A stretch of 64,000 bases of DNA from Halorarum halophilum (GTDB lineage: Archaea; Halobacteriota; Halobacteria; Halobacteriales; Haloferacaceae): positions 2,418,001-2,482,000 of the forward strand of contig NZ_CP058529.1 of the NCBI RefSeq assembly GCF_013401515.1. The letters are read 5' to 3'. Numbering within the stretch: position 1 is the stretch's first letter; the number at the start of each line of letters is the position of its first letter. Shown piece after piece: positions 32,664 through 36,884 of the stretch. A program made the translations under genes and the position numbers. Below the pieces are notes generated by a model that made no database searches, was not told where the DNA came from, and worked only from the letters and a program-made list of their open reading frames with translations.

Positions 32664-34451
32664 TCAGGCCAACGCGGAGAGGTCGAACTCGAAGGCGGCG
32701 ACGGGGACCTCCATGTCGTGCTCGACCAGCACCTTGGGGTGTAGTTCCCCGATCACGCCGACCGACTCCCCGTCGATTACGATCTCCGCAACTCGACCCG
32801 AAATGAAGCTCGGATGATCGATCGCGGGGGTCGCCAGGTCGGCGTCGAAGTCGTCACACAGCGCCTGGAGGCGCGCCTTCGCGTCCTCGTAGGTCGCGTC
32901 CGTCCGGGCGACCGCGGCGGCGACGTGGTGGGCCTCGGCGACGCGCGTGTTCACCTCGTCGTCGCGGTGGGCGACGAAGCCGACCTCGGCGAGGTCCTGG
33001 GGGTACGACCGGTGAGTGTTGTTCTCCAGCACCTGCGCGAGCGAGGGGAGCGCCCAGGTCCGCAGTTGGGTGTAGTCCTCGCTGTACGGGGAGGTGATCT
33101 CGGCGCGCTCGCCGGCGCCGAAGGCGTCGTTCCCCTCCTCGATTCCCATGCGCTCGTAGTTCTCATTGGCGCTGGTCATGTGGAAGTTCAGCGTGTCCTG
33201 GAAGCCGAGGCCGATCAGGGTCGTCCGGACGGCGTCCTCCAGCCGCGAGCGCTCGTGGCGCCCGCCGATGGTGCCGATGTCGGGGTACTTCGGTTCGAGC
33301 GTGTTGAAGCCGTAGGCCCGGCCGACGTCGTCCACGAGGTCGAGCGGGTGGAGCACGTCGACGCGGTAGGGGGGGATCGTCACGTCGTAGGTCGTCTCCT
33401 CCTCTCCTAGGGTGTATGCGGCGTCCAGCCCCGAGCGCTCGAACAGGTCGACCACCTCCTCGCGCTCCAGCTCGATGCCGAGGATCGACTCGATGCGCTC
33501 GTGTGTGACGGACTTCTCGTCGGTCTCCAGGTCCGGGCGGATCAGCTCCGGCCCGTACTCGTCGGGGTGGGTCGCGCCGTCGTCGTAGACGACCTCGACC
33601 TCCTCGATCGTCCCGCCGCGCGCGGCGAGCGCGTAGCAGATGATGACGCACATCCGGTCGATGGTCCACTGGTCGGTGCCGGTGAGTTCGACGAACAGGT
33701 CCCGCGAGTCCGTGGAGACCTCCGTCCGGCGACCGTTGATGACCGGCGGGAACGAGAACAGGCCGAGTTCGTCGTAGATGGCGGGGTAGCGGTTGAGCCC
33801 CTCCACGAGGTCGGCGTACTTCCCGCCCGTCGGGTGCTCCGCCAGCACCTCGGCGGGCGTGAGCTCCTTGTCCGAATCGAGCGGGACGAAGCGGTCGCCG
33901 TCCGGGTCGACCCCGCGGTAGGTGATGGTGTTCGGCGTCCCGCTGAGCTGGGAAGCCGGACCACCCGTCGTGCCGGCCGTCTCGCCCTCCTGCCGGAGCA
34001 CCTCCCCTTTCAGCATCGTGAGGTCGTGGATGCCGATGGCGCCCTTCGCCCGGTCGCGCCCCATCGTCGCGTGGAGCTTCTCCTGGAGCTGGATGAGCGA
34101 GTCGAGCGCCGACTCGTCGAGGTCCAGCCCTCGGACCACGGCACCCGTGACGAACGGTCGCTCGTCCGGGACGGACTCGTCCACCTCGATGGTCCAGTCC
34201 GGGTCGTTCGGGTCCGGGACGTGGACGCCGCGCGCGTCGCCGTACTGGTACCGGAGCGACCTGGCGACGCCCTCGACGGAGAGCCGGTCGAGCCGGTCCG
34301 GGCCGAACTCGAACTGAAGTTCGCCCTCGTCGGTCTCGCCCTCGAACTCCAGCCCGAGCGCGAACAGGTCCTCCTCGAACTCCTCGTCGCTCTTCTCCTC
34401 GTGGCCGGTCAGTTCGCGCAGTTCGTCCGTGTCGATGTCGACGACGGGCAT
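32664..34451 (-). CDS. pheT: phenylalanyl-tRNA synthetase beta subunit
   Basis: Beta chain of the alpha2-beta2 PheRS, cytoplasmic. At 595 residues it is the short archaeal/eukaryotic type without the bacterial EMAP domain. Visible: MPVVDIDTDELRELTGHEE, B3/B4-type segment HDLTMLKGEV, the IINGRRTEVS-like VINGRRTEVSTDSRDLFVEL, the B5 domain around DVTIPPYRVDVLHPLDLVDD, and IGELHPKVLVEHDMEVPVAA at the end. The ATG overlaps the pheS stop by one base (TGATG), so the two subunits are coupled. Confidence 0.96.
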   Translation of the reverse strand: MPVVDIDTDELRELTGHEEKSDEEFEEDLFALGLEFEGETDEGELQFEFGPDRLDRLSVEGVARSLRYQYGDARGVHVPDPNDPDWTIEVDESVPDERPFVTGAVVRGLDLDESALDSLIQLQEKLHATMGRDRAKGAIGIHDLTMLKGEVLRQEGETAGTTGGPASQLSGTPNTITYRGVDPDGDRFVPLDSDKELTPAEVLAEHPTGGKYADLVEGLNRYPAIYDELGLFSFPPVINGRRTEVSTDSRDLFVELTGTDQWTIDRMCVIICYALAARGGTIEEVEVVYDDGATHPDEYGPELIRPDLETDEKSVTHERIESILGIELEREEVVDLFERSGLDAAYTLGEEETTYDVTIPPYRVDVLHPLDLVDDVGRAYGFNTLEPKYPDIGTIGGRHERSRLEDAVRTTLIGLGFQDTLNFHMTSANENYERMGIEEGNDAFGAGERAEITSPYSEDYTQLRTWALPSLAQVLENNTHRSYPQDLAEVGFVAHRDDEVNTRVAEAHHVAAAVARTDATYEDAKARLQALCDDFDADLATPAIDHPSFISGRVAEIVIDGESVGVIGELHPKVLVEHDMEVPVAAFEFDLSALA

Positions 34452-35956
34452 CAGTAGGTCACCTCCGCGTTCCGCAGGAACTCGATGTCCGCGAGCGTGC
34501 CGTGGAGGTCGCGGATGTCCTCGGCGCCCGTGGTGAGCATCGCCAGCCGCTCCAGCGCGAGCCCCCAGGCCATCACGTCGCACTCCACGCCGAGCGGTTC
34601 GAGCACCTCGTCGCGGAAGATGCCGGAGTTACCGATCTCGATCACCTCGCCCGTCTCGGGGTGCCGCCCGAACAGCTCGAAGGACGGCTCGGTGTACGGG
34701 TTGTAGTGGGGCTTGAACTCGATGTCGGTGATGCCGAACTGGCGGTAGAACTCCTCGAAGGTACCCATCAGGTCGCGCACCGAGAGGTCCTCGGCCATCA
34801 CCCACCCCTCGATCTGGAAGAACTCCAGCAGGTGGGTCGCGTCCAGCGTGTCGTTCCGGTACGCCTTCTCGAGCGAGAAGTAGCGTTTCGGCGGGTCGAC
34901 GTTCTCTCCAGCGTACCCCGAGAGGTAGCGCATCGTCAGCGACGTGGTGTGGCCGCGTAGCGCGATGGCCCGCGCGAAGTCCTCGGACCACGGCGAGTGG
35001 TAGCCGTCGCCGTCCTCGCCGACGCCCTCGCGGTGGGTCGCCTCGACGCGCTCGACCAGCTGCTCGGGGAGCTCCCGGACCGGCGGCACGTCCAGCGCAA
35101 AGCGGTCCCAGTGGGTCCGCGCCGGGTGGTCCTGGGGCATGAACAGGCAGTCGTTGATCCAGAAGTCCGCGTCGGCGTGCGGGCCCTCCATCTCCTCGAA
35201 GCCCATCCCCACGAGCACGTCCTTCACGCGGTCCGCGACCCCGCGGAGCACGTGTTTGCGCCCGCCCTCGACGTCGGGCGCGTCGGCCTCGACGTTGTAC
35301 TCGGAGAACTCGGCGTCGGTCCACTCGCCCGAGGTCAGCATCTCGGGCGTCAGGCGGTCGGCGGTCTCGGCGACCTCGACGCCCTCCATCAGGGCGGTGA
35401 CGCCCTCGTCGGTGAGCGTCACCGAGCGGACGGTCCGTTCGGTCACCTCGACGAGCCCTCGGCGGTCGAGCTGGGAGAGCACGTCGTCGTCCGCGACGGG
35501 TTCGTCGGCCGCCAGCGCGGCGAGCGCGGCTGCCTCGGCGTCGGAATCGGGGTCGGCGTCCGGGTCGGCCGAGAGTTCGCCGGAGTCGATGGTTCCGTAC
35601 CCCTTCCGGGCGAAGTTCGAGAGCGCGATGTCGACCTCGGGGCCTTCCAGCCCCGACGCGCCGATGACCTGGCCCATCTGTACGGGGTCCTCGTCGGCGT
35701 CCGCGTCGACGGCGGCCCGGTAGAGCCGGACCTCGGGGAGCCCGTCGTCGGCGTATCTCCGGCCCTCGTCGGTGATGGTCGCGGACTCCTCGGTCGCCTC
35801 CTCGACCGCGACGAGCCCGTCGTCCCGGAGGTCGAAGGCGGCGCGGGTGACTGTCTCCGGTTTCAGGTCCGTCTCCGCGGCGAGCTGTTCTACCGTCTTC
35901 GCGTCGGTCGCGCTGGCGGCCTGCAGGAGCGTGACCTCTGCCTCTGAGCGTGGCAT
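34451..35956 (-). CDS. pheS: phenylalanyl-tRNA synthetase alpha subunit
   Basis: Catalytic alpha chain of 501 residues. The N-terminal 230 residues are winged-helix tRNA-binding repeats (LLQAASATDAKTVEQLAAET), interrupted by an acidic D/A-rich stretch. The class II core follows: motif-1 region MGFEEMEGPHADADFWI, RTHWDRF, then LEKAYRNDTLDATHLLEFFQ with the motif 2 arginine, and motif 3 AWGLALERLAML. Upstream on the same strand is a Phe-rich leader peptide and a structured 182-base leader. Confidence 0.96.
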   Translation of the reverse strand: MPRSEAEVTLLQAASATDAKTVEQLAAETDLKPETVTRAAFDLRDDGLVAVEEATEESATITDEGRRYADDGLPEVRLYRAAVDADADEDPVQMGQVIGASGLEGPEVDIALSNFARKGYGTIDSGELSADPDADPDSDAEAAALAALAADEPVADDDVLSQLDRRGLVEVTERTVRSVTLTDEGVTALMEGVEVAETADRLTPEMLTSGEWTDAEFSEYNVEADAPDVEGGRKHVLRGVADRVKDVLVGMGFEEMEGPHADADFWINDCLFMPQDHPARTHWDRFALDVPPVRELPEQLVERVEATHREGVGEDGDGYHSPWSEDFARAIALRGHTTSLTMRYLSGYAGENVDPPKRYFSLEKAYRNDTLDATHLLEFFQIEGWVMAEDLSVRDLMGTFEEFYRQFGITDIEFKPHYNPYTEPSFELFGRHPETGEVIEIGNSGIFRDEVLEPLGVECDVMAWGLALERLAMLTTGAEDIRDLHGTLADIEFLRNAEVTY

Positions 35957-36138
35957 CTTCTTGGCTTGGTGTGTGGCGTGTCGTCCGATAGGCGTTCCGT
36001 TAGTAGCTCGGGCGGCGGTAGAACGCCGCCCGACGATGAGCCGCCCGGGCGAGGGAGGGGACCCTCAGCCGAGCGCCGCGCCGAACGGGACGGTTTCGCG
36101 CCGCGGGCCCTCCCGGGTCCCGCTCGGGTCCGCCGCCC
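35957..36138 (-). promoter_or_regulatory. pheST leader RNA with two competing pairings
   Basis: Read on the minus strand, after the leader-peptide stop comes GGGCGGCGG (36138-36130). Further on, UCGGGCGGCG (36033-36024) and CGCCGCCCGA (36017-36008) form a perfect 10-bp hairpin with a 6-base loop, ending 51 bases before pheS. The 3' half of that hairpin, CCGCCGCCC (36018-36010), can instead pair perfectly over 9 bp with the segment at the leader stop codon. The two structures exclude one another. No U-run follows the hairpin, so transcription termination is not proven; control of pheS translation is an alternative. Confidence 0.5.
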
Positions 36139-36219
36139 TCAGGCGCGGAAGAAGTCGAAGCCGAACCCGCCGGTGGTCGTCTCGGGGGCGATGCGGTCGG
36201 CGGCGGGTTCGGGCGCCAT
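36139..36219 (-). CDS. 26-residue phenylalanine-rich leader peptide of pheST
   Basis: The ATG at 36219 opens a 26-codon frame (first residues MAPEPAADRIAPETTT) whose last ten residues are GGFGFDFFRA, with Phe at positions 19, 21, 23 and 24, all TTC. The minus-strand TATA-like GCTTTTGTTC at 36241-36250 is at leaderless spacing from this ATG. A Phe run just before the stop, ahead of Phe-tRNA synthetase genes, is what a ribosome-mediated attenuator would use. That it is translated is inference. Confidence 0.6.
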   Translation of the reverse strand: MAPEPAADRIAPETTTGGFGFDFFRA

Positions 36220-36302
36220 ACCGCCGACTGTGACCCTCTCGAACAAAAGCGTTGCCGTGGGCGCGACTCGTCCTCGCTGGGCACCGGCCCGACGCCGTCG
36301 GC

Positions 36303-36335: not shown

Positions 36336-36884
36336 ATGCCCGCCGACGACACCCTAAAGAACGCCGCGATCGGCGCGGTGGCCTCCATCGTCCTGTTCTT
36401 CCTCCCGTTCTCGCCGGCGCTCGGCGGGGCGCTGGCCGGCTACCTCCAGGGCGGCGACACGGACGAGGGGCTCCGCGTCGGTGCGCTCTCGGGCGCTATC
36501 GCCGCCGTCCCGCTCGCGGTGCTCGCGGTGCTCGTCACCGCGGTGTTCGTCATCGCCGCGCCGGGTCGGGCGGCGCTGGCGTTCGTCGTGTTCTTCGTCG
36601 TCGTGCTGTTCGTCGCGTTGCTGTACGGCGTCGGCCTCGGCGCGCTCGGCGGCCTCCTCGGCGCGTACCTCAACGAGGAGTTCGACGGGTCGGCGCGGAC
36701 CTCGCCCGAACCCGTCCACCGCAAGCCGGAGTCCGCCCGCGACGAGCGCGTCCCCGCCTCCGAACGCCCGGCGTTCGAGGGATCGCCCGCCGGCGTCGAC
36801 GAGCGGGACGCCGCCGCCGGCGACGCGGACGTTCGCGGCCGCGACAGTCGGACCGACGACGGGTGGGACGCCGATCGTCGCTGA
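36336..36884 (+). CDS. DUF5518-like membrane protein
   Basis: A 182-residue protein. Residues 1-115 hold four hydrophobic helices with glycine-rich turns: LKNAAIGAVASIVLFFLPF, GGALAGYLQGGDTDEG, AVPLAVLAVLVTAVFVIAA and GVGLGALGGLLGAYL. The GALAGYLQGGD-type turn is typical of haloarchaeal DUF5518 proteins. The last 65 residues are a hydrophilic D/R/A-rich tail. Function unknown. Confidence 0.75.
   Translation: MPADDTLKNAAIGAVASIVLFFLPFSPALGGALAGYLQGGDTDEGLRVGALSGAIAAVPLAVLAVLVTAVFVIAAPGRAALAFVVFFVVVLFVALLYGVGLGALGGLLGAYLNEEFDGSARTSPEPVHRKPESARDERVPASERPAFEGSPAGVDERDAAAGDADVRGRDSRTDDGWDADRR

Follow-up and report, generated by a model that had tools for sequence, protein, structure and literature searches.

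A candidate phenylalanine-sensing leader peptide for the haloarchaeal pheST operon

In the attenuator of the E. coli pheST operon (pheM), a Phe-rich leader ORF lies directly 5' of the Phe-tRNA synthetase genes, its stop codon follows soon after the Phe codons, and the position of the translating ribosome can choose between RNA folds, namely an intrinsic terminator with its U-run and an exclusive antiterminator pairing. The DNA upstream of pheST in the haloarchaeon Halorarum halophilum is arranged in the same way, with a Phe-rich ORF and a prompt stop, and ribosome position could select among RNA folds here as well. According to Blombach et al. 2021 (PMC8448881), archaea have no known case of transcription attenuation or antitermination, and a literature search turned up no description of a pheS leader in archaea; its scope did not extend to two Haloferax Ribo-seq papers in which the ORF is possibly listed. 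The haloarchaeal pheST leader resembles starvation sensors that, to date, have been described from bacteria alone.

Locus, distribution and promoters of the leader

The window analyzed here is a stretch of 64,000 nucleotides of the H. halophilum chromosome (contig NZ_CP058529.1), and all features of the operon lie on its minus strand. The pheS gene, encoding the alpha subunit of Phe-tRNA synthetase, occupies positions 34451 to 35956 (ATG at 35956), as assigned from the ORF list and by a similarity search that finds PheS in 193 of 195 genomes of the order. The ORF at 32664 to 34451, which overlaps the pheS stop codon by one base, we take from its position and sequence to be pheT, encoding the beta subunit. 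Upstream of both genes, the first-pass annotation had reported a 26-codon ORF and, close to its stop, four TTC codons, and both features are borne out. The ORF, MAPEPAADRIAPETTTGGFGFDFFRA, spans 36139 to 36219, from an ATG at 36219 to a TGA at 36141-36139, and its Phe-codon run (36148 to 36165) comprises TTC codons at 36165-36163, 36159-36157, 36153-36151, and 36150-36148, followed by Arg-Ala-stop.

We searched 195 genomes of the order for PheS, along with GTDB species contigs, and the extraction of further upstream regions brought the sample to 191 distinct regions. The Phe run and the ORF frame, on whose conservation in relatives the earlier reading had been staked, are kept in 150 of these 191, as an ORF with the consensus M-[AP]-S-E-[PS]...G-F-G-F-F-F-A-stop in the orientation of pheS; the distance from the leader stop to pheS is 88-245 nt among these 150. 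Matches to the leader in other genomes all lie at pheS, save two or three weak ones at chance level. Short ORFs with an ATG start number 5490 in 1.26 Mb of this genome, and just 4 of them carry at least four Phe residues among their last 12; no comparable leader for another amino acid stood out in 1.2 Mb of chromosome plus the window, about one-third of the chromosome.

The leader ORF is present in 13 of the 17 sampled families of the order and was not seen in sampled members of families f2, f9, f11, and f13. It is absent or degraded in sampled Halohasta, Halonotius, Natronomonas, Halomicrobium, and part of Halorubrum, and a search of 20 outgroup genomes from other orders of the phylum found no recognizable leader. 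On a PheS tree built from 101 sequences, presence and absence change 10 times, a count that by itself cannot separate gain from loss. Taken together, the breadth of this distribution, its patchy gaps, and the empty outgroups suggest that the leader is ancient, arose within the haloarchaea, and was lost several times. Two regions, from Halomicrobium and a relative, retain a TATA box and the RNA element that follows the leader (helix B/C, below), with an apparently decayed ORF and no ATG-started Phe ORF, a possible case of recent leader loss. In one metagenome-assembled genome (MAG), a single frameshift separates the leader start from the Phe codons, reflecting either an assembly error or a genuine loss.

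A putative core promoter, P1, lies at 36244 to 36257, approximately 26-37 nt 5' of the leader ATG, and consists of a BRE (CGGCAAC) and a TATA-like element (GCTTTTG). A divergent gene of unknown function (36336-36884, plus strand) has its 5' end facing P1 and its start region near the leader promoter. When the 150 leaders are aligned on their ATG, the resulting logo places AAC at -34 to -32 and TTTT at -29 to -26, at a fixed distance. In haloarchaea, a BRE/TATA pair held at fixed distance from the ATG, here from -37 to -26, implies a predicted transcript start at or next to that codon, i.e., a leaderless transcript. Leaderless transcripts account for 72% of those in Haloferax according to the figure of Babski et al. 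as cited in PMC8576121.

A second element, CGGAACCGCTAACTGAC, begins approximately 43 nt before pheS in most species and resembles the P1 core when scored with a P1-type matrix. Its counterpart in the window is CGGAACGCCTATC (35987 to 35999), where most species have CGGAACCGCTAAC. The element is found in nearly all haloarchaea sampled, including species that lack the leader, and can be read as a second core promoter, P2, whose TATA box is unusual. Both P1 and P2 thus appear to be present in most species, and P2, lying beside pheS, would probably supply basal pheST expression in them; it could account for most pheST mRNA. Four leader-bearing species (L062, L098, L124, and L129) have an absent or weakened P2. 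In two further regions, L298 and L299 (genomes G012 and G039), the leader stop lies only 35-37 nt before pheS, leaving no room for P2, and therefore P1, the only candidate promoter, must alone serve pheS there. These two regions represent a minimal form of the leader, in which P1, the Phe-run ORF, and the helix formed by the ORF ends (helix A, below) are retained while B/C and P2 are lost, and they offer a good system for isolating the core mechanism.

Conserved RNA structures and proposed control by Phe-tRNA supply

Two RNA structures are conserved in the leader transcript. In helix A, the 5' arm CCGAACCCGCCG (36201 to 36212; transcript nt 8-19) is a perfect 12-nt complement of the 3' arm CGGCGGGTTCGG (36161 to 36172), which comprises the Gly-Gly-Phe-Gly codons, including the first Phe codon. 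Across species, transcript nt 8-16, within codons 3-6, pair with the Gly-Phe-Gly codons. Among 144 distinct sequences, 92.7% of cells are paired, compared with 84.3% (sd 0.6) for arms exchanged between species; cells changed on both sides number 94 versus 32.6 with exchanged arms. Halorubrum provides an example of such compensatory change, with Leu-Glu-Arg in one arm and Ala-Phe-Gly in the other. The conserved Ser-Glu-Pro of the leader therefore reflects pairing. Helix A also appears in the minimum free energy structure of the leader in the window; fold energy alone (z = -0.43) is uninformative in GC-rich DNA.

The second structure, helix B/C (36087 to 36138), begins within a few nucleotides of the leader stop and consists of an outer stem (36138-36133 with 36093-36087), an internal loop of the form YGGA/GAAA (here CGGA at 36132-36129 and GAAA at 36097-36094), and an inner hairpin (36128-36098). 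Its covariation score of 0.506 compares with 0.178 (sd 0.019) for shuffled and at most 0.20 for slid alignments, and 15 of the 17 model pairs show changes on both sides. A search of the genome with the corresponding model, R1, returns the window match (E = 1.5e-5) as its sole significant place. The possibility of paralogous copies of this post-stop element was considered and set aside, as further matches in the same genome are at chance level and those in 59 genomes lie almost only at pheS. The symmetric internal loop hardly varies while lying between two strongly co-varying helices, and looks like a site for a protein or a tertiary contact. Helix B/C is unrecognizable in L298, L299, and L301 and is therefore not essential to the mechanism. 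Neither a T-box fold nor any other known RNA was recognized in the leader by Rfam, even at E values up to 1.

The helices A and B/C are located where a ribosome translating the leader would be expected to toggle them, as judged from its known footprint. If charged tRNA-Phe were scarce, the first ribosome would stall on the Phe codons; with its A site at the first Phe codon it would cover the 3' arm of helix A, and because that codon mostly lies 30-35 nt from the YGGA sequence, its front edge would end short of the outer B strand, leaving B/C free to fold. If Phe were plentiful, the ribosome would reach the stop codon and cover the 5' strand of B/C, and helix A could close behind it. We infer that ribosome position would set the two helices to opposite states even though they share no sequence. 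In the stalled state, RNA polymerase would proceed into pheST; in the fast or ribosome-free state, transcription would mostly halt before pheS.

How such a halt might be brought about is suggested by the base composition of the leader RNA, whose most U-rich 12-nt window is the Phe run in 147 of 150 species. An intrinsic terminator, i.e., a hairpin plus U-run before pheS, was not found in any of the 150 species. The first-pass annotation had already remarked that no U-run follows its hairpin, and from the leader stop to pheS the longest stretch of T is indeed 1-3 in 150 of 150. With no U-tract terminator and the Phe run as the sole U-rich site, factor-dependent arrest by FttA/aCPSF1 is favored. 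FttA prefers U-rich RNA and binds approximately 30-36 nt behind the RNA 3' end (PMC11616081), and transcription-translation coupling has been proposed in Haloferax (PMC8576121). FttA/aCPSF1 could thus load on the exposed UUC run once RNA polymerase has entered or passed B/C, at a site that a stalled ribosome would mask. The FttA step is one that we infer from position only. Selection for U-richness of the Phe run was also considered: the TTT fraction is higher there than in pheS (0.21 versus 0.04), but the excess is equal in the rest of the leader, and the signal vanishes.

These components are proposed with different degrees of confidence. A Phe-sensing leader peptide of the pheST operon is, as a whole, the best explanation of the locus and probably the right one, even though no terminator/antiterminator alternative co-varies and several lineages manage without a leader. 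That Phe-tRNA supply controls pheST through this leader is likely. Whether control acts at transcription elongation is evenly poised. Attenuation via FttA on the Phe run is possible, though we hold it at less than even. The combined proposal, that this is the first archaeal amino-acid-responsive attenuator, dispensing with an intrinsic terminator and using the Phe run as both codon sensor and FttA loading site masked by the stalled ribosome, is also held at less than even.

The same sensor might instead have a different output, in which the stalled ribosome affects the translation or stability of the P1-derived pheST mRNA, as in translation attenuation or nuclease protection, and not transcription. 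The lack of a recognizable terminator is in keeping with such an output, as are the mere 35-37 nt between leader and pheS in L298 and L299 and the nearly invariant YGGA/GAAA loop, suggestive of a binding partner. This alternative is nonetheless less likely than not, since the leader arms do not co-vary with the pheS start (E1-S, 0.54; E2-S, 0.53; O3-S, 0.45) and the distance to pheS ranges from 35 to 245 nt with no matching structure.

More conventional attenuation was the logic of the first-pass annotation, in which the segment at the leader stop, GGGCGGCGG (36138-36130), and one arm of a 10-bp hairpin compete for CCGCCGCCC. Both pairings can form in this species, where GGGCGGCGG does lie just after the stop and the hairpin, TCGGGCGGCG-TTCTAC-CGCCGCCCGA, is present at 36008 to 36033 (arms 36033-36024 and 36017-36008). 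The hairpin is not conserved, the sister species L002 lacks both pairings, and just 2 of the tested species have CCGCCGCCC downstream of the leader stop. Pairing of the post-stop segment with the downstream region does not exceed chance and shows no co-variation (AUC 0.49), and no U-run follows. The post-stop sequence GGCGGCGGA is conserved, yet its partner is the CCG after GAAA in helix B/C. Nor do the Phe arm, 5' arm, or O3 arm co-vary with GAAACCG, the pre-pheS element, or the pheS start (AUC 0.44-0.58), and among the pairings tested no mutually exclusive terminator/antiterminator pair co-varied or was recognizable. The idea of a leader peptide thus stands, with ORF, frame, Phe run, leaderless promoter, and link to pheS all conserved, whereas the particular RNA logic is unsupported because its pairings are private to this species, making attenuation by this route highly improbable.

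Probable translation of the leader ORF

The 5' motif and the Gly-Phe motif are separated by 37, 43, 46, 49, 52, 55, or 58 nt, and 116 of 120 such spacings, scored with no requirement for an open frame, equal 1 modulo 3. Of the off-frame cases inspected individually, three are motif mis-assignments within fully open ORFs and the fourth is a truly broken copy in one MAG. Thirteen spacing changes map onto the PheS tree with the frame preserved. In the ORF frame, the first stop comes no more than 10 codons after the first Phe codon in 147 of 150 species, compared with 14 and 9 in the other two frames. Codons in the middle of the leader are nearly free to vary (0.185, 0.210, and 0.255 by codon position), and the third-position T/(T+C) ratio there is approximately 3.5 times that of pheS in a comparison of leader ORFs with pheS genes from 77 species, a relaxed codon bias as expected for a sequence whose product goes unused. 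A variable middle, a kept frame, and a close stop characterize leader peptides rather than functional small proteins, and the ORF is almost certainly a translated Phe leader belonging to pheST.

The conservation of [AT]-S-E-P at the N terminus and GFGFFFA at the C terminus as peptide could point to a functional microprotein whose proximity to pheS is incidental. The SEP and GFG motifs change together, a behavior explained by RNA pairing, and the unconstrained middle, the variable length, and the confinement of all but chance-level matches to pheS make this reading very improbable. Least credible is an untranslated structured RNA, with helix A giving rise to the ORF and Phe run incidentally because the DNA is GC-rich. 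Helix A does include parts of both ORF ends and so limits change in codons 3-6 and the first Gly-Phe-Gly, but the frame is preserved through 13 spacing changes, Phe codons 2-4 are conserved outside the helix, and stop placement holds in one frame only.

Comparison with known systems

Compared with E. coli pheM, the Phe-sensing leader proposed here has an archaeal host, a leaderless start codon, and a second promoter 3' of the leader. It lacks an intrinsic terminator and U-run, and its conserved folds are not a terminator/antiterminator pair. The helices A and B/C, having no sequence in common, also differ from those of the trp attenuator. The sensor is that of bacterial pheST attenuation, but a terminator and exclusive pairings, the features that define a classical attenuator, are lacking.

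Other bacterial systems offer parallels for individual steps. T-box riboswitches likewise place aminoacyl-tRNA synthetase genes under the control of tRNA charging, but the haloarchaeal sensor is translated and is not a tRNA-binding RNA. Rho-dependent, translation-gated leaders resemble the proposed mechanism in terminating without an intrinsic terminator and in that a ribosome on the leader could mask the loading site; archaea have no Rho, and the candidate factor here, FttA/aCPSF1, binds U-rich RNA (PMC11616081). A leader peptide spread over 13 haloarchaeal families, the genetically tractable Haloferax included, is a concrete candidate for archaeal attenuation. If true, this would suggest that archaea evolved control by leader peptides independently, with initiation that is leaderless and an output different from that of the bacterial counterparts.
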